A stretch of DNA of 21,090 bases from a virus: positions 1 through 21,090 of IMG/VR virus record IMGVR_UViG_3300042402_002467, one strand, 5' to 3'. Below the pieces are notes generated by a model that had not been told where the DNA came from, made no database searches, and saw only the letters and a list, made by a program, of their open reading frames with translations. Positions 11,443 to 19,469 of this stretch are shown here, one piece after another. A program made the position numbers and the translations under genes. Position 1 is the first letter of the stretch; the number at the start of each line of letters is the position of its first letter.

Positions 11443-11466
11443 AAGCTCCTTTTTAGGGGCTTTTTT
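11443..11466 (+). terminator. Rho-independent terminator closing the late block
   Basis: AAGCTCC (11443-11449) pairs with GGGGCTT (11456-11462), seven pairs with one G-U, around a 6-base loop TTTTTA. A run of T at 11461-11466 follows. It lies 27 bases after the stop of the beta-rich gene and before the first early promoter, so it insulates the two blocks. Confidence 0.8.
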
Positions 11467-11488: not shown

Positions 11489-11517
11489 TAGACCTGAAAT
11501 AGCCGATTTGTTATACT
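11489..11517 (+). promoter_or_regulatory. Sigma70-like early promoter
   Basis: TAGACC at 11489-11494 (4 of 6 to the -35 consensus), a 17-base spacer, then TATACT at 11512-11517 (5 of 6 to the -10). The predicted +1 is 11524, exactly where the leader shared with the ATPase gene begins. It drives the gene at 11548. Confidence 0.65.
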
Positions 11518-11523
11518 AGTTTT

Positions 11524-11542
11524 ACAGTAACAAAACAGGAGC
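11524..11542 (+). repeat. Conserved early 5' leader, copy 1
   Basis: ACAGTAACAAAACAGGAGC begins at the predicted +1 and includes the AGGAG Shine-Dalgarno. It differs at one base of 19 from the leader at 12040-12058. The same distance from the -10 in both places suggests a copied or selected untranslated region. Confidence 0.75.
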
Positions 11543-11547
11543 TCAAA

Positions 11548-11742
11548 ATGAGCAAAGCTACCACAGCAAAAGATATAATCCGTGAGATGCTAGAGACTCT
11601 GAGGGAAGCCGCTGTTAAAGCCCTTCCAGATGCCACAGAAGCAGAACGTGAAGAAAGCATAGCCAAATTCCTGGGTATTATGAGCGATGCCATGTTTGCT
11701 GGCCCAACAAAAACGTTGCGTAAAAACAACACTAATACTTGA
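11548..11742 (+). CDS. Small early protein of unknown function
   Basis: A 64-residue helical, charged protein; the middle has a heptad-like helix (IIREMLETLREAAVKAL) and an acidic stretch ATEAEREES, followed by a hydrophobic IAKFLGIMSDAMF segment. No known family is recognised. It has its own early promoter and a strong AGGAG 5 bases before the ATG, in a leader shared with the ATPase gene. It is probably made soon after infection. The next promoter's -35 lies at its 3' end. Confidence 0.7.
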   Translation: MSKATTAKDIIREMLETLREAAVKALPDATEAEREESIAKFLGIMSDAMFAGPTKTLRKNNTNT

Positions 11743-11767
11743 CAATAAATGGATTTAGGTGTATAAT
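11739..11767 (+). promoter_or_regulatory. Perfect consensus sigma70 promoter giving a leaderless mRNA
   Basis: TTGACA (11739-11744), a 17-base spacer, then TATAAT (11762-11767): both hexamers match the consensus exactly. +1, 7 bases after the hexamer end, would be 11774, the A of the next ATG. No Shine-Dalgarno is present in the 6 bases between. Confidence 0.85.
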
Positions 11768-11773
11768 ACATTT

Positions 11774-11998
11774 ATGAAATCAAAAATCGTTATTACTCAG
11801 CGTGAAAATGACAGGTATTTCAAGCAAAAATTGCCCACTTGGCGCAATGGTTTCTGTGAAATAGTCCGTAATGTCACGATTGAAAAGGACCCACACAACA
11901 TTTACCAAGACGGTGAGTGGGGTTACATCACAGTCTATGGCCGTGAGATTTATGTCACTAGAAACGGCACTGAATCTGCGTTTGAAATTCGTGGCTGA
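11774..11998 (+). CDS. Small early protein, probably translated without a leader
   Basis: A 74-residue, mostly beta-strand-like protein (KIVITQREND, GYITVYGREIYVTRNG) with no recognised domain. The ATG at 11774 is chosen over an in-frame GTG at 11759, which lies within the promoter. The promoter's predicted +1 coincides with the ATG, so the mRNA should start with AUG and need no Shine-Dalgarno. The gene overlaps nothing; a second promoter follows for the ATPase gene 7 bases after its stop. Confidence 0.7.
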   Translation: MKSKIVITQRENDRYFKQKLPTWRNGFCEIVRNVTIEKDPHNIYQDGEWGYITVYGREIYVTRNGTESAFEIRG

Positions 11999-12039: not shown

Positions 12040-12058
12040 ACACTAACAAAACAGGAGC
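12040..12058 (+). repeat. Conserved early 5' leader, copy 2
   Basis: ACACTAACAAAACAGGAGC, one base different from the copy at 11524-11542 and starting at its predicted +1. AGGAG ends 6 bases before the A of the ATG at 12064. Confidence 0.75.
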
Positions 12059-12063
12059 AGTAA

Positions 12064-13083
12064 ATGACCCAAGTTCTCATCCGCAACGGCGTTTATCGTA
12101 ACAAACCCGTACACAACGAAGTTTTTGAATTGGTTAGAGACTTCACAGTTGGCGCAAAAGGCGGCTTTGTGACTGTTGACAGCAAGGGCTTCTTTGGCCC
12201 AGAATACGGCATTGCTCGTGTCACAGTAGATAGCATGGAAGACATTGAAATCCAAGGTGCCACAGCCACCACTGAAACTGCTGTAAAGGCAGCACCTGCG
12301 GCAGAAGCCTCTGATGCAGAAGTGATGGCTCGTATACGCGAGCGTTTTGAAATTCTTGATGAAATGACCAAAGCAGCCGTGGCCGGCGACGTCCGTGCTA
12401 TGATTGTATCCGGCCCTCCGGGCGTGGGCAAGAGCTACGGCGTTGAGAAGATTGTGGAAGCTGCCTGCTTGTTTGACAAGATCTCCGGCAAGCGTCTACG
12501 TGCCGAGGTTGTGAAAGGTAGTGCTACAGCATTAGGCCTGTACCAGACCCTGTACAAATACAGCGACAAAAACTGTGTGTTGGTATTTGATGACTGCGAT
12601 TCAATCTTGCTAGATGACGTGGCCTTGAACTTGTTGAAAGGTGCCTTGGACTCGGGTAAGAAGCGTAAGATTTCCTGGTTGAGTGACAGCAATGTGTTAC
12701 GCCGTGAAGGTATCCCAGACAGCTTCAACTTCAACGGTACTGTGATCTTCATTACCAACTTGAAGTTTGACAAGATGAAATCGCAAAAATTGCGCGATCA
12801 CTTGGATGCCTTGCAGTCGCGCTGCCACTACTTGGACTTGACACTGGACACCATGCGTGACAAGATCTTGCGTATCAAACAGATTGCCAACGACGGTCAG
12901 TTGTTTGAAGAATACGAGTTTGACACAGAAACGCAAGAAGAGATCATTGACTTTATGACGCACAATGCCACTCGCTTCCGTGAGATGAGCTTGCGTATGG
13001 CAATCAAGATTGCAGACTTGCGCAAGAGCTTTCCGCTCAAGTGGAAGGCCATGGCTGAAGTTACTTGCATGAAGTCAGCGTAA
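12064..13083 (+). CDS. AAA+ ATPase, phage type
   Basis: A 339-residue protein. Residues 1-65 form a small beta-rich N-domain, then an Ala-rich linker to about residue 90. The AAA+ core follows: Walker A GPPGVGKS (117-124), Walker B VLVFDDCD (172-179), and sensor-1 strand VIFITNLKF (227-235) with Asn at 232. Basic residues around DHLDALQSR (about 245-253) could include an arginine finger. AAA+ proteins of this length with a short N-domain are common in T4-like marine phages; the partner and exact role are not known. The gene has a strong early promoter, a candidate operator and a shared leader. Base composition is GC-richer than in the B12 gene downstream. Confidence 0.85.
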   Translation: MTQVLIRNGVYRNKPVHNEVFELVRDFTVGAKGGFVTVDSKGFFGPEYGIARVTVDSMEDIEIQGATATTETAVKAAPAAEASDAEVMARIRERFEILDEMTKAAVAGDVRAMIVSGPPGVGKSYGVEKIVEAACLFDKISGKRLRAEVVKGSATALGLYQTLYKYSDKNCVLVFDDCDSILLDDVALNLLKGALDSGKKRKISWLSDSNVLRREGIPDSFNFNGTVIFITNLKFDKMKSQKLRDHLDALQSRCHYLDLTLDTMRDKILRIKQIANDGQLFEEYEFDTETQEEIIDFMTHNATRFREMSLRMAIKIADLRKSFPLKWKAMAEVTCMKSA

Positions 13084-13721: not shown

Positions 13722-13925
13722 ATGAACAAACTAACTAAAGAGCAGGCGATAGTAATCACTGGCTTCACTGGAATCACAGCATGCCGGTTCAGTGACTTTC
13801 ACGAGGATGTTGAACGCAGAATGGGTCGTCCAGTTTGGACTCACGAATTTAGTAATCCAGAATTTGAGGAAAAGATTAAAGAACTTTATAAGAATGACTT
13901 TTTAAGTTTATTGGAGACAGAATAA
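13722..13925 (+). CDS. Small conserved phage protein (DUF7736-like)
   Basis: A 67-residue acidic protein. The pattern KLTKEQA..I...TG......SDFHEDVERRMGRPVWTHEF and the closing DFLSL resemble a small protein family found in many phages, which I recall as DUF7736; no function is known to me. AAGGAA at 13711-13716 serves its ATG, and the stop overlaps the next start as TAATG at 13923-13927. It is part of the early cluster of small genes. Confidence 0.65.
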   Translation: MNKLTKEQAIVITGFTGITACRFSDFHEDVERRMGRPVWTHEFSNPEFEEKIKELYKNDFLSLLETE

Positions 13926-14197
13926 TGGCAGATAGATTTGATTTAGAACAACAGATATTAGACTGCTGGAAAATCACTGACGATATTGCCATGATGGAAT
14001 CGCAAGGTGCCAATACAGCAGACATGACCAGTTTGGCCTGTGTGTACGAATACAAGTTTAAACGACTATGGGAAATATTTGAAGGCATGGTTCACGAACA
14101 GCAGTTTAAATCTACGGAAGAATTTTTTGAATCTGGTCGAGAGTTAGCTCGTAAACTTGATAAAAAAAGCAAAAAGCATGCCGGCACAAACTCTTAA
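13925..14197 (+). CDS. Small conserved T4-like phage protein of unknown function
   Basis: A 90-residue helical protein starting MADRFDLEQQILDCWKITDDIAMM, an opening that I recall from hypothetical proteins of cyanophages and other marine T4-like phages. A second helix, YEYKFKRLWEIFEGMVHEQ, completes the pattern; the tail is basic. No catalytic motif is visible. GGAG at 13913-13916 is its likely ribosome site, and the start overlaps the previous stop by one base. The function is not established. Confidence 0.65.
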   Translation: MADRFDLEQQILDCWKITDDIAMMESQGANTADMTSLACVYEYKFKRLWEIFEGMVHEQQFKSTEEFFESGRELARKLDKKSKKHAGTNS

Positions 14198-14218
14198 ACA
14201 CTATTTCGGAGTTGAACA

Positions 14219-14470
14219 ATGACAAACCTAACAGACGCAGAAAAAATTGTAGAGCTCAACAAGCTGATCGAATTTGGCCACCGTACAGTAGAAGCGTGTC
14301 TGGAACGTATGGCTGCCGTTGAATCAGATGCCAGTATTGGTCGGGTGGTACGTGCAAAATTTAACAGTGGTAACAACATTCCGGTAACTACTATTACAAT
14401 GACTCGTAAAGAGATTGCAGACCAGTTGGAGAATGATGATGCGCAAGTTGGTAATGGAACGGTTAGGTAA
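14219..14470 (+). CDS. Small early protein of unknown function
   Basis: An 83-residue protein with an N-terminal helical half (TDAEKIVELNKLIEFGHRTVEACLERMAAVE) and a less ordered, Thr-rich C-terminal half. It resembles no family I can name. Its leader is the third copy of GGAGTTGAA followed by two bases and ATG. A 43-residue ORF overlaps its last 17 bases in another frame and may be translationally coupled to it. Confidence 0.6.
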   Translation: MTNLTDAEKIVELNKLIEFGHRTVEACLERMAAVESDASIGRVVRAKFNSGNNIPVTTITMTRKEIADQLENDDAQVGNGTVR

Positions 14471-14585
14471 TGTATGGTGTGACGCATTAGAATTAGAACA
14501 CTCAATTGCACAAAGTGAATTTAGCTTGCTCACGGACGAAGAACTCCTCGACTTGTACACTGATGTTTTTGGTATTGGTGGTTAG
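14454..14585 (+). CDS. 43-residue acidic ORF
   Basis: MERLGNVWCDALELEHSIAQ begins an acidic ORF ending in LLTDEELLDLYTDVFGIGG. The LTDEELLDLY segment is a typical amphipathic helix, which supports coding. It starts within the last codons of the previous gene, without a close Shine-Dalgarno, and would depend on coupling. It fills the gap before the structured RNA at 14596. No family is recognised. Confidence 0.45.
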   Translation: MERLGNVWCDALELEHSIAQSEFSLLTDEELLDLYTDVFGIGG

Positions 14586-14595
14586 ATTTTACCCG

Positions 14596-14668
14596 GATTG
14601 TCTGTAGTAAACGCTCCTGTTTAGACAATCTGTTTTGGGCATCGTAGCAATACGGTGCCTATTTTTTT
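14596..14668 (+). ncRNA. Structured 3' RNA with a leader-complementary loop
   Basis: A first hairpin joins GATTGTCT (14596-14603) and AGACAATC (14623-14630), with an inner stem TAAAC/GTTTA (14608-14612, 14619-14623) and a six-base loop GCTCCT (14613-14618). A terminator hairpin follows at 14637-14668. The ten bases GCTCCTGTTT (14613-14622) are the exact reverse complement of AAACAGGAGC in the leaders at 11524-11542 and 12040-12058. It could be a 3'-end derived small RNA acting on those mRNAs. No convincing promoter lies just upstream. Confidence 0.4.
14637..14668 (+). terminator. Rho-independent terminator with GNRA loop
   Basis: GGCATCGTA (14638-14646) pairs with TACGGTGCC (14651-14659), nine pairs with one G-U, around a GCAA tetraloop. 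TATTTTTTT follows. The last T residues are also the start of the next promoter's -35 TTGACT, so the two elements are fused. Confidence 0.9.
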
Positions 14669-14695
14669 GACTTTATGTGCTACATACTGTATAAT
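14667..14695 (+). promoter_or_regulatory. Sigma70-like promoter giving a leaderless mRNA
   Basis: TTGACT (14667-14672), 17-base spacer, TATAAT (14690-14695). Only ACATT separates the hexamer from the ATG at 14701, so +1 would be 14701 or 14702. The same TATAATACATT(T)ATG join occurs at 11762-11776. No Shine-Dalgarno precedes the ATG. Confidence 0.8.
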
Positions 14696-14700
14696 ACATT

Positions 14701-15237
14701 ATGAAACTTAAACTTGAATTATTCGGCAGCAAATGTAACGATTACCCTTCATTGTCAGTATTGCACAATAAACTCACAGTATATTCTGGCAATGTTGTAG
14801 AAAATTTTACAGTGGAGATCGATCTAGATCCAGCTGACTCTAATTTAATTACACTCGTTGGAATTAACAAAAGCGATGGCAAAAACGGAAAATGGGATAC
14901 AGTCGTAGATGCAGATGGTAATATTTTACAAGATAAATATTTACTTGTTAACGACATTTGCCTAGACGATATCTCAATGGGGCGTGAATGGATTAAAAAA
15001 TTACATTTTGAATCCTCAGATCACAATGACAATACTGTATTTACAGGATGGTGGAAAAATGGTACAGTGTCGTTCAAAATTGAGTTGCCGCTGTTCGATT
15101 GGATCATACAACAAAAGTTTATTCTGGCAGAATCAGCTGAGTCTCTGAACTCCAGTGATCGCAGTGGCGAAAGCAGATTTGGCTACAGATATATTCAAAA
15201 CAAAATTAACATTATCAAACACATACTAAATGATTAA
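14701..15237 (+). CDS. Unknown beta-rich protein preceding the B12 radical SAM gene
   Basis: A 178-residue acidic protein with beta-type strands (KLTVYSGNVVENFTVEIDLDP) and Asp-rich turns, including DADGNILQDKY and WWKNGTVSFKIELPLFDWIIQQKF. The turns could bind a metal, but no standard EF-hand is seen. Its 3' end overlaps the radical SAM start by 8 bases, so the two are probably co-expressed and may act together. It has its own promoter and terminator upstream, and no Shine-Dalgarno. The bases are AT-rich compared with the helicase gene. I do not recognise the family. Confidence 0.6.
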   Translation: MKLKLELFGSKCNDYPSLSVLHNKLTVYSGNVVENFTVEIDLDPADSNLITLVGINKSDGKNGKWDTVVDADGNILQDKYLLVNDICLDDISMGREWIKKLHFESSDHNDNTVFTGWWKNGTVSFKIELPLFDWIIQQKFILAESAESLNSSDRSGESRFGYRYIQNKINIIKHILND

Positions 15238-16750
15238 TACTTTAATATATAGTTTGCCGCCATTGGACCGACTGCGCCCACCACTAAGTGGTGCTATACT
15301 TGCTAGTGTGTGTAAAAATCTTGGACATACTTGCCACGCTGTTGACTTGCAAATGGAACTTGATAATTTTTTAAAAATAAACAATGTTAACGGTGAATAT
15401 TTTGATGATGTATTTTATGAACACAGTAATTCTTTTGACAACGATCAACTTGCATTATTAAAAATATTTATTTTACAAGAATTAGAAAAGTTAAAAGGTA
15501 CCAGTTATAATTTTGTGCTGGTAAGTTTTTTTTCATATTTGGCCTTGCCATTTGGACAAATTTTTTTAAAAGAGTTGCGCCAAGCAACCTCTGCGAAAAT
15601 TATAGTAGGAGGAGCGGGAATTACAGAAAAATATTTCACCAATGAACCGTGTCACGCAGTTAACAAATTAAAAAAACAAAACATCATTGATGAATTTATC
15701 ACCGGAGAATGCGAACATGCGCTTCCACTATATTTTAAGACCGGCGGTGGACCCGGAATTGGCAACAACAATTTTGTGCAAATTGACCAGTTAGATTTGC
15801 TACCTTGGCCTGATTATTCCTATTACAATTTAGACGCTTATCAAGCTAACCAACAAAAAGAATTGTGCATTATCGGCAGTAGAGGATGTGTGCGTCGATG
15901 TACCTTTTGCGATGTAGCTAAAACAAGTCCTAAATATAGATACAGATCCGGGCAAAATATTGCCAATGAAATTATACACCATTACAACCAGTTTGGAATT
16001 ACCAGATACTATTTTACGGATAGCTTAGTTAATGGTAGTTTTAAAGCATTTGACGAAATGGCTCAATGCCTAGCAGAATATCAGTTTCCGGATCCAATAT
16101 CGTGGTCTGGACAATACATTATTCGCTCTAAGAACACAACACCTAAAGATCATTTTAAAAAATTAAAAGAGTCAGGTTGCTCTACGCTGTTTATTGGAAT
16201 TGAATCAGGTTCAGATCGAGTTCGATTTGAACTTGGAAAAAAATTTACCAATGACGACATCGAATACTATTTAGAAAATTTTGCCCGCTACAATATTCAA
16301 GTGTTATTTTTATTTTTTACAGGGTATATCAGCGAAACTGCCGAGGATCATGCAGAAACTCTTACAATGTTTAAACGATGGCAAAAATACGTGGCTACAG
16401 GGACCATTCAAGGAATCGAAACATTAAATCTATTAGGTATACTTCCGGGTAGCCCATTGGAAGAAATAGCAAAGCATAATGGCTTTTTGTTTTTAACTGA
16501 CGATAATAATAAAATAAATTTACGCCACTGGATAAATCCGGCTCTGCCAGACTTTGACTTCAAAGAACGTGTAAAAAGACACTTAACCATGATGGAAGAA
16601 GCTATGCGGTACAAGTGGCCATTGTGGAACGGCCAATTATCAATGCGGTTGTATGAACAAGCAATAATAAAATTTATAAATTCTCCTAAGAAATACATTC
16701 CTTTGACACAAGCCCTAACAATTCCTACACCGACAATTACCAAACAATGA
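15230..16750 (+). CDS. B12-binding-type radical SAM enzyme
   Basis: A 506-residue protein. Residues 1-130 resemble the B12-binding fold of this class (RLRPPLSGAILASVCKNLGHTCHAVDL, then KIIVGGAGIT), but the usual DxHxxG cobalamin motif is not seen, so cobalamin use is uncertain. GCVRRCTFCDVAKTSPKYRYRS at about 219 onward gives C220-x3-C224-x2-C227 for the [4Fe-4S] cluster, and the RSGQNIANEII and YFTDS segments continue the SAM barrel. Class members methylate, isomerise or rearrange. The substrate is unknown. The gene is very AT-rich (11 G+C in 60 bases at 15361-15420), unlike the helicase after it. The stop overlaps the uvsW start as ATGA. Confidence 0.8.
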   Translation: MINTLIYSLPPLDRLRPPLSGAILASVCKNLGHTCHAVDLQMELDNFLKINNVNGEYFDDVFYEHSNSFDNDQLALLKIFILQELEKLKGTSYNFVLVSFFSYLALPFGQIFLKELRQATSAKIIVGGAGITEKYFTNEPCHAVNKLKKQNIIDEFITGECEHALPLYFKTGGGPGIGNNNFVQIDQLDLLPWPDYSYYNLDAYQANQQKELCIIGSRGCVRRCTFCDVAKTSPKYRYRSGQNIANEIIHHYNQFGITRYYFTDSLVNGSFKAFDEMAQCLAEYQFPDPISWSGQYIIRSKNTTPKDHFKKLKESGCSTLFIGIESGSDRVRFELGKKFTNDDIEYYLENFARYNIQVLFLFFTGYISETAEDHAETLTMFKRWQKYVATGTIQGIETLNLLGILPGSPLEEIAKHNGFLFLTDDNNKINLRHWINPALPDFDFKERVKRHLTMMEEAMRYKWPLWNGQLSMRLYEQAIIKFINSPKKYIPLTQALTIPTPTITKQ

Positions 16751-18243
16751 CAACCGCAACCATAATCATACATGACGAAGTCAACATCAAGATTGAAGGA
16801 TTGGAACTTGATGTGCGCCGTGCTTTAGTAAACAAATTTAAATATCTAAATCCGGCAGCACGTTATTTGCCAGCTGTTAGATTGGGACGATGGGACGGAA
16901 AGGTTGCTTACTTTCAGTTGGGCGGCAGCACTTATGTAAACTTGTTGCCGGAAATTGTACCCATCCTAGATGAATATGGCTACGACATTGAACTAGATGA
17001 TCGTAGAACCTACAGCAACAAGTTTGAATTTGCACTAATGGCAGAAGACACGTTTTCGGATCGTGTGTGGCCGCCTGGACACGAACGTGCGGGTCAGCCT
17101 GTGGTGTTGCGAGATTACCAAGTAGAAATCATCAACGAGTTTTTGAATAATCCTCAAAGCCTACAAGAGATTGCCACAGGTGCAGGCAAGACCTTAATTA
17201 CAGCCGCGCTAAGTTGGCAAGTTGGACTCTATGGTCGTAGCATTGTTATTGTGCCCAACAAGAGCTTAGTCACGCAGACAGAAACCGACTATCGCAACTT
17301 GGGACTGGATGTGGGTGTGTATTTTGGTGATCGCAAGGAATGGGGTCGTCAGCACACCATCTGTACTTGGCAAAGTCTCAATGTGTTACTAAAGAATACC
17401 AAGTCCGGCGAAGCCGACTGTACTATACAAGATTTCATAGAAGACGTAGTGTGTGTTATAGTCGACGAAGTACACATGGCCAAAGCAGATGCTCTTAAGA
17501 CTCTGTTGACCGGCGTCATGGCACATATTCCCATACGCTGGGGCTTGACTGGCACTGTGCCCAAAGAAGATTTTGAGTTTCAGTCTCTGCATGTGAGTCT
17601 TGGACCAGTTGTGGGCAGACTACGTGCCAGCGAATTGCAATCGCAGGGTGTACTGGCACAGTGCCATGTGAATATTGTGCAGCTAGTTGACCATGTAGAA
17701 TATAAGGACTACCAAAGCGAGCTTAAATACTTGGTAACTACACTAGAACGCATTGAAGCTGTCGCTAAAGTAATAGATAAAATTAAAGATTCTGGTAACA
17801 CTCTTATCTTGGTAGATCGAATTGAAACAGGTAAGATTTTACAAACACAAATGAGTTCCATGTTTAGTTTGTTATCTGATCAACCCGATGTGGTGTTTGT
17901 ATCGGGTGCAACCAAAGCCACAGACAGAAAAGATGAATACGACGAAATTGCCACCAGTACCAACAAGATTATCATTGCCACTTACGGTGTGGCTGCTGTG
18001 GGTATCAACATACCGCGTATCTTTAACTTGGTCATGATAGAATCTGGCAAGAGCTTTACTAGAGTGATTCAAAGTATTGGGCGCGGTATTAGAAAAGCCG
18101 AAGACAAGGACCATGTAGAGATTTGGGACATAACTTCAACTTGTAAATTTGCCAAACGGCACTTGACCAAACGTAAGGTTTTCTATCGGGAAGCCAACTA
18201 TCCTTTTTCAGCAGAGAAACTAGAATGGCAGACCGCAAAGTAA
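16747..18243 (+). CDS. uvsW: UvsW-family ATP-dependent DNA/RNA helicase
   Basis: A 498-residue superfamily 2 helicase. The N-terminal domain (residues 1-100, with LGRWDGKVAYFQ) matches the UvsW-type substrate-binding module. Motif I ATGAGKT is at 143-149, VIVDEVHMA (DEVH at 240-243) is motif II, WGLTGTVPKE (265-274) is motif III, and QSIGRGIRK (442-450) is motif VI. In T4, UvsW unwinds R-loops and recombination branches and helps switch replication origin use. The start overlaps the preceding gene as ATGA, and its 3' end overlaps the second radical SAM gene by 19 bases, so the three are tightly linked. GC-rich coding relative to the upstream B12 gene suggests an older local origin. Confidence 0.9.
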   Translation: MTTATIIIHDEVNIKIEGLELDVRRALVNKFKYLNPAARYLPAVRLGRWDGKVAYFQLGGSTYVNLLPEIVPILDEYGYDIELDDRRTYSNKFEFALMAEDTFSDRVWPPGHERAGQPVVLRDYQVEIINEFLNNPQSLQEIATGAGKTLITAALSWQVGLYGRSIVIVPNKSLVTQTETDYRNLGLDVGVYFGDRKEWGRQHTICTWQSLNVLLKNTKSGEADCTIQDFIEDVVCVIVDEVHMAKADALKTLLTGVMAHIPIRWGLTGTVPKEDFEFQSLHVSLGPVVGRLRASELQSQGVLAQCHVNIVQLVDHVEYKDYQSELKYLVTTLERIEAVAKVIDKIKDSGNTLILVDRIETGKILQTQMSSMFSLLSDQPDVVFVSGATKATDRKDEYDEIATSTNKIIIATYGVAAVGINIPRIFNLVMIESGKSFTRVIQSIGRGIRKAEDKDHVEIWDITSTCKFAKRHLTKRKVFYREANYPFSAEKLEWQTAK

Positions 18244-19469
18244 CTGAATATCCAGACAATCTTTGTTTAGCACCGTTTGCATATCTAACATTTGATCCTG
18301 CAAACAACGTAAGTCCGTGTCCGGCCCTGGGCGGCAGTGTTTGGCGTTTTCCAGATCAGACCATACACAAGATTTGGACCAACCCAGAGCTGACTGCTTT
18401 CAGACAAGACATGTTGGAAAACAAACGCCATGATGTGTGTAGTCGTTGCTGGGAGGAAGAAGCTGTGGGTATGCCCAGCCAACGTACACGCTTGTGGGAC
18501 ATGTCAGTTGATCCTGCCGGCACCGAAACCAGTATCTTAGAAACTGCTACCACTCCAGCAGATGTGTTACAACCAGCAACTTACGCAAAAGGTCCCATGC
18601 AGTTGGCCATCAAGATCAGTAATGTGTGTAACTTACGTTGCCGCAGTTGTAACAGCAACGACAGTGTGACCTTGTCTGTAGAAGGTCGCTATTATAATGA
18701 AAATTACCAGCTACATGACAATGTGTATTTTCAAGAAACCACTGCCAAGACTTTCACTGATCAGCAGATCGATAATGTAGTGGACATGTGCCACAATGTG
18801 CGACGCCTGGAATTTTACGGTGGTGAACCACTGTTAGACCGACAGTTGCCGCGCCTGTTACAAAAATTAATAGATCGCGGATATAATCAACAGATCACCA
18901 TCAACATCAGTACCAATATCACACAAACTTTGACTACTGGTTTAGTCAAACTGCTGTTGGCTTTTGAAAAAGTGCAGATTAATTTAAGCATGGATGGCTG
19001 GGCAGAAAAGTTTGAGTACTTACGGCATCCCGGAAACTGGAATCAAGTTTATCAAAATGCCTTGGCCTATATTAGATGGGCTCGCGCCAGTAACGGGCGC
19101 ATTACACTTTTACCAGTAATTACTGTGACTACAATGAATGTGCATCACTTGCCGGAACTGGTGACCAACATGAAGCAGCACTTTAGGCTAACACCATTCT
19201 TGATCTTGTGCCGCAAGCCATATTATTTCAGTGTTAGAAACATTCCCGATCCTATTGCACAAGAAATCATCAACCGACTAAACAGCTATCCAGATTACGA
19301 CTTTGGTTCTATTGCTCGTGCCTTGGCAGAATCTGCTGATTTGGACATGTGGAACGAGTTCAAATCCTGGACTCGGATGATCGATCAGTATCGCAAAGAA
19401 AGTTTTTCTACTACCTTTCCTGAATACGCAGATTTGATTAAACGTCATGACCAATCAGCAAATTTATAG
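18225..19469 (+). CDS. Twitch-domain radical SAM protein
   Basis: A 414-residue protein with two cysteine regions. The N-terminal part has C14, C32 and the pair C72/C75, as in the SPASM/twitch auxiliary-cluster domain placed before the core. The radical SAM motif VCNLRCRSC gives C135-x3-C139-x2-C142, followed by LEFYGGEPLLD (GGEP at 199-202). Relatives modify peptides, or are of unknown function in marine T4-like phages. The start inside the UvsW end (19-base overlap) indicates coupling. A peptide or protein substrate is likely from the family; the actual target is not visible. Confidence 0.85.
   Translation: MADRKVTEYPDNLCLAPFAYLTFDPANNVSPCPALGGSVWRFPDQTIHKIWTNPELTAFRQDMLENKRHDVCSRCWEEEAVGMPSQRTRLWDMSVDPAGTETSILETATTPADVLQPATYAKGPMQLAIKISNVCNLRCRSCNSNDSVTLSVEGRYYNENYQLHDNVYFQETTAKTFTDQQIDNVVDMCHNVRRLEFYGGEPLLDRQLPRLLQKLIDRGYNQQITINISTNITQTLTTGLVKLLLAFEKVQINLSMDGWAEKFEYLRHPGNWNQVYQNALAYIRWARASNGRITLLPVITVTTMNVHHLPELVTNMKQHFRLTPFLILCRKPYYFSVRNIPDPIAQEIINRLNSYPDYDFGSIARALAESADLDMWNEFKSWTRMIDQYRKESFSTTFPEYADLIKRHDQSANL

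Follow-up and report, generated by a model that had tools for sequence, protein, structure and literature searches.

Autoregulation through pairing of a 3' UTR with a ribosome-binding region is known so far from a few bacterial genes. The 3' UTR of the icaR mRNA of Staphylococcus aureus contains an anti-Shine-Dalgarno motif, the 7-nt UCCCCUG; by pairing with the Shine-Dalgarno of that mRNA it prevents initiation and creates a substrate for RNase III (PMC3868564). In Vibrio cholerae, CarZ and OppZ are RNAs from the 3' ends of operons that use the operon's terminator and have no promoter of their own. In each, a stem-loop pairs with the transcript of its own operon and represses it, with compensatory changes as the proof, and both processing by RNase E and binding of Hfq were demonstrated (PMC7398697). 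A limited literature search, with subscription journals mostly outside it, found no described case of a lytic phage that encodes autoregulation by 3'-UTR pairing.

In T4, the RegA repressor acts at, or close to, the ribosome-binding site of early mRNAs. Hairpins with exposed anti-Shine-Dalgarno loops are a feature of the Cuckoo RNAs/CcsR RNAs of proteobacteria, where they sometimes stand several in a row and carry a fixed CCUCCUCCC motif.

Here we analyze a phage locus in which an RNA hairpin at the end of an operon carries the exact complement of the leader at the operon's start. The window, meaning the whole 21,090-nt stretch of DNA analyzed, contains an AAA-family ATPase gene and, at the 3' end of its transcription unit, a hairpin followed by a terminator. 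We think it likely that the antisense loop of this 3' UTR pairs with the ribosome-binding site of its own operon and represses translation, as a negative feedback. The features concerned are as follows.

11489..11517, plus strand: promoter of the 64-aa gene, TAGACC-17-TATACT with an extended -10, a consensus match
11533..11542, plus strand: second target, AAACAGGAGC before the 64-aa gene at 11548-11742; exact match, also found in relatives L149 and L005
12005..12033, plus strand: sigma70-like promoter of the AAA operon, TTGACC-17-TATAAT, 11/12 matches
12049..12058, plus strand: first target, AAACAGGAGC, which includes the Shine-Dalgarno of the AAA-ATPase gene; exact match, predicted duplex
12064..13083, plus strand: AAA-family ATPase gene (phrog_1250, PF00004), the conserved partner of the element
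14594..14632, plus strand: anti-leader hairpin, the 3' UTR element, with outer stem, 5' bulge, inner stem and apical loop
14613..14622, plus strand: antisense site GCUCCUGUUU in the apical part of the hairpin, complementary at every base to the leader AAACAGGAGC
14636..14668, plus strand: intrinsic terminator that closes the AAA transcription unit, with a U7 tract and a GCAA tetraloop
14667..14695, plus strand: next promoter, TTGACT-17-TATAAT, whose -35 box overlaps the U tract of the terminator

An exact copy of the ten bases of AAACAGGAGC, Shine-Dalgarno included, stands at 11533-11542 (+) and another at 12049-12058 (+); the reverse complement, likewise exact, is found at 14613-14622. This bears out the earlier note, which had read the loop GCUCCU, when extended, as complementary to two early leaders across the Shine-Dalgarno. 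Both leaders lie close behind sigma70-like promoters, and the consensus matches predict an untranslated leader of ~24 nt. The AAA leader is short, A-rich and, by fold prediction, unstructured. When the region is folded, the hairpin has an outer stem of 11 bp (14594-14604 with 14622-14632), then a short inner stem and the loop GCUCCU, with a folding energy by itself of -12.5 kcal/mol (z -3.8). Directly 3' of it stands the GNRA-capped terminator that the earlier note had also recognized; by folding it has an 11-bp stem, a GCAA cap and a U7 tract. Hairpin and terminator together reach -29.5 kcal/mol (z = -4.6 compared with dinucleotide shuffles). The duplex of loop and AAA leader is predicted at -17.3 kcal/mol, and opening would cost ~3.6 kcal/mol in all, ~3.2 at the hairpin site and ~0.4 in the leader.

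The ten-base match alone is modest. Its expected frequency by chance, 2 x 21090/4^10 = 0.04, agrees with the few percent estimated before, and five to six of the bases are trivially anti-Shine-Dalgarno. The case goes beyond chance because relatives were compared, and the loop-leader comparison across them, together with covariation in the stem, rules out a chance match. On this comparative evidence the earlier observation is correct, and stronger than first stated.

Several neighboring features are observations in their own right. The terminator's U tract and the -35 box of the following promoter run together (14662-14672, TTTTTTTGACT), and terminator/promoter fusions of this kind were seen again in many relatives. 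At 11739-11774 and 14667-14701 stand near-perfect sigma70-like promoters (12/12 and 11/12 matches) whose ends are separated by 5-6 nt from an ATG (TATAATACATTTATG, TATAATACATTATG); leaderless mRNAs are therefore the probable templates for translation of the genes at 11774 and 14701. A further terminator-like hairpin at 11443-11462 (AAGCTCCTTTTTAGGGGCTT), kept in L002 and L007, contains GCTCC, which on the minus strand resembles the leader with one mismatch. The small genes at 13722-14585, between AAA and the hairpin, vary among close relatives, some of which lack one or another, but the hairpin keeps its place at the end of the operon; judged by these comparisons, the region is a gene exchange hot spot. 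Just before the hairpin, the small genes at 14219-14470 and 14451-14585 overlap by ~20 bases in different frames. Two radical SAM proteins (15230-16750 and 18225-19469, one of the B12-binding type and one of the twitch-domain type) flank a UvsW/XPB-like helicase (16747-18243), and their genes are unusual metabolic genes in a phage. For the AAA protein itself, a sequence search found no relatives in the PDB.

Relatives were gathered by similarity to the AAA-ATPase gene (12064-13083), so that elements without AAA would escape. In close relatives the hairpin and terminator are 96-97% identical and the AAA coding sequence 83-91%. Within the window's clade the antisense site GCUCCUGUUU is invariant, and several genes between AAA and the hairpin are absent or diverged despite the conservation of the hairpin. 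Across a wider range of relatives than this clade (18 sequences), the nine-pair outer stem shows 100% pairing in 18 of 18, with double changes at eight of the nine pairs; none of 500 shuffles was as good, and the signal was lost when the partners were slid against each other. By this covariation, the hairpin is real as an RNA structure.

In the loci examined, the element lies 6-2643 nt (median 272) past the AAA stop and ahead of the terminator, and in some phages it starts at or on the AAA stop codon. For 145 of 191 loci the site lies downstream of AAA and before a terminator hairpin, in a list that was selected with the AAA leader and is therefore biased toward it. About one quarter of the 191 loci have no clear site; in L040, L063 and L065 just 6 nt match the AAA leader, and the match in L022/L023 is weak. 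All four large genomes examined have a single element, and the element is carried by many uncultured phages, on contigs of up to ~360 kb. A blastn search with the element gave no match in 50,697 phage records nor in plasmids. The cultured AAA relatives in PA5oct (52% identity) and KARL-1 (34%) have no similar hairpin near AAA, and two bacterial bins with AAA relatives (Porticoccaceae and Methylophilaceae) have no element of this form.

From phage to phage, the loop changes together with the leader. At the 191 loci, which are related and non-redundant, the longest antisense match to the AAA leader within 2 kb downstream was determined automatically; it reaches 9 nt or more in 70% of them, compared with 26% for swapped leaders and ~11% in the control of 2 kb upstream; part of any match is trivial, since AGGAG is common to many other early leaders. 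A T-run follows 126 of the 134 sites of at least 9 nt, versus 25% of random positions. Leader positions +2, +4 and +5 after GGAG covary with the loop (0 of 2000 shuffles), with hairpins picked by structure and CTCC core, flanking leader bases unused, and with shuffles that ignore relatedness. For independent pairs on separate branches of the AAA protein tree, native pairing energy beats swapped pairing energy in 13 of 15 (p = 0.007), and the comparison repeated over 300 draws gave a mean of 13.6 to 1.0 in favor of native pairing; this test and the position test largely avoid the bias of site lists chosen with the AAA leader but share a small one, the type of element core having been matched to the leader core (CTCC, or GCCC for GGGG leaders). 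Single-position tests on the tree fell short of power, and the whole-pairing comparison was used in their place.

The variants themselves can be listed as natural partners, leader before loop: GGGGCUAGAAA/UUUCUAGCCC, AGGAGCCAACC/GGUUGGCUCCU and GGAGCGAA/UUCGCUCC among the relatives, and in another clade GGAGCCAACC/GGUUGGCUCC. Where the Shine-Dalgarno itself is altered, the loop tracks the change (GGGGCUAGAAACC/UUUCUAGCCC, AAAGGGCUAGUAACC/UUACUAGCCC, CAGGAGUUAAA/UUUAACUCCUG and UGGAGCAACA/UGUUGCUCCA). The pairing register also shifts, extending 5' of the Shine-Dalgarno in the window's clade and 3' of it in most others. These comparisons indicate that loop-leader pairing is under selection. Natural co-variation of this kind supports the interaction without experiment, and it supplies ready-made compensatory pairs. 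The hit AGGAGCTAGACTAAAATG in G003 was not counted as a leader, as it looks like the opposite strand of the hairpin itself.

Among the genes compared, the element matches AAA most consistently (one site list having been chosen with the AAA leader). The gene ~0.45-0.5 kb upstream of AAA also matches in several clades, as it does in the window. The main conserved target looks like AAA of the same operon, with 3'-UTR feedback as the primary role, and other early genes with the same leader are likely to be extra targets. In a clade other than the window's, several early genes have GGAGCGAA leaders, and the element, with the loop GAUUCGCUCCC, is present in one or two tandem copies; in some of these phages the second loop sits inside the terminator hairpin. 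Such an arrangement was seen at L119:5158-5236, L122:5057-5133 and L437:5148-5210, where two tandem hairpins have the same loop GATTCGCTCCC and the second is the terminator hairpin; several of the early genes near them have the matching GGAGCGAA leader.

Is the action confined to the mRNA that carries the loop? The 3' UTR could fold back on the 5' leader of the same molecule, as in icaR, with neither a free small RNA nor a target in trans, and we regard this as possible but on the doubtful side. It would agree with an element that, in divergent phages, remains part of the AAA transcription unit and is found once per genome in the four large genomes. It would also agree with G005, in which the loop matches the AAA leader (CGGAGCCA) although AAACAGGAGC precedes three other genes; the loop's tracking of AAA, and not of the AAACAGGAGC genes, argues for its own operon as the primary target. 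AAA is the most consistent match, yet unlinked genes have the same leader in two clades. In G009, a 160.6-kb relative from the window's clade, both strands of the complete contig together have six copies of AAACAGGAGC, five of them leaders and one the antisense loop. The five leaders, which precede genes for 152, 42, 63, 61 and 339 aa (the last being AAA), are the top 5 of 170 genes by duplex energy. Two of these genes lie at 6.1 and 11.1 kb and the element at 152 kb, so they must be on other transcripts. In L108/L113, one GGAGCGAA-leader gene lies beyond the terminator and would thus be reachable in trans only. There is close to an even chance that the hairpin and terminator are processed into a stable 3'-UTR-derived small RNA of ~75 nt that, like OppZ/CarZ, targets its own mRNA and further early mRNAs in trans. 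The two structures are compact and stay at the operon end while intervening genes come and go (6-2643 nt), and in two clades the leader is common to several genes. Such processing sits less easily with those phages in which the site touches the AAA stop codon, which leaves little separate RNA 5' of the site.

The remaining alternatives place the signal elsewhere or reverse its effect. The earlier note had taken the element for a dedicated small-RNA gene, which the structured RNA, the terminator at its end and the antisense loop could suggest. However, upstream of the element in 96 loci we found no sigma70-like promoter above random, as judged by consensus match (mean best promoter-like score 6.9/12, random positions 7.0), and by the same scoring the AAA promoter reaches 10.7 and the promoter after the terminator 9.7. 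The AAA transcription unit has the element at its 3' end, often right after the AAA stop, and a stand-alone gene with its own promoter is very improbable. Still harder to credit is a DNA-binding protein that recognizes one double-stranded site at the promoters and at the operon end. Complementary RNA segments are indeed an inverted copy of a DNA site as well, but the downstream copy, in the loci inspected, has the antisense orientation and sits in the loop of a hairpin with a covarying stem, and the site is centered on the Shine-Dalgarno and not on the promoter boxes. Finally, the pairing might protect or circularize the mRNA or activate translation. Pairing of 5' and 3' ends could shield them from RNases, and the direction of the effect is not revealed by sequence; nevertheless, the Shine-Dalgarno lies within the duplex, and the AAA leader lacks any inhibitory structure that pairing could open, which makes a positive effect unlikely.

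The reading that we prefer, translational feedback by a 3'-UTR antisense loop, would proceed as follows. A strong sigma70-type promoter would drive the AAA operon, whose leader is short, A-rich and predicted to be unstructured. The hairpin would be made only once RNA polymerase gets to the operon end, just before the terminator, and its exposed loop would then form 8-11 bp with the AAA leader across the Shine-Dalgarno, on the same molecule or on another copy. The duplex would block ribosome binding and end the burst of early protein synthesis; this would amount to negative feedback and might also time the early proteins. Where an extended Shine-Dalgarno is shared (five AAACAGGAGC genes in the window's clade, several GGAGCGAA genes in another), the same loop probably acts in trans to repress the other early mRNAs with that leader. 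The structure, the complementarity, the co-evolution, the position in the 3' UTR and the lack of a detectable promoter are read directly from sequence. From them we infer repression, action in trans, processing to a free small RNA and a role in timing. The view of the earlier note, that a phage RNA limits the phage's own early genes, holds as the best reading of the complementarity, selection and shared leaders, with the shut-off itself among the inferred parts.

More tentatively, and with somewhat less than an even chance of being right, the early regulon may be coded in RNA. A clade-specific Shine-Dalgarno 'address' would mark the early gene set, and the 3'-UTR loop would read this address in trans and shut the set off, in lytic phages in which no regulators of the RegA/RegB type were detected. 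Pfam models of RegA and RegB gave no match in nine phage contigs related to the window and both matched the T4 control; divergent homologues are possible, and this absence is suggestive only. If the proposal is true, address and reader would co-evolve into a private code for each phage clade. Where no protein regulators were detected, the element offers a candidate RNA mechanism for timing the early genes of a phage, and its leader/loop pairs would be naturally orthogonal translation switches.

A search of the window against Rfam at gathering score gave no match to a known RNA family, and the element is best read as a new RNA family whose mechanism would be of the icaR or CarZ/OppZ kind. The T4 RegB endoribonuclease, which cleaves at GGAG (from annotation), acts at or close to the ribosome-binding site of early mRNAs, as we propose for this element; RegB and RegA are proteins, whereas the phage element is an RNA. 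Unlike the Cuckoo RNAs with their CCUCCUCCC-type loop, the window has the loop GCUCCU, and the phage loops vary and follow a particular leader. The likeness to icaR is a 3'-UTR anti-Shine-Dalgarno motif complementary to the Shine-Dalgarno of the same mRNA. In contrast to icaR, which is one bacterial gene with a 7-nt motif, the phage element is a covarying stem-loop beside a terminator in many phages, with a pairing of 8-11 nt that tracks the leader and, in some clades, several genes with that leader. Like CarZ and OppZ, it lies in the 3' UTR of an operon, uses the operon's terminator, has no detected promoter of its own, and is complementary to, and co-evolves with, the ribosome-binding region of its own operon. 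Unlike them, it is borne by phages, is known here from sequence alone and covaries over many species.
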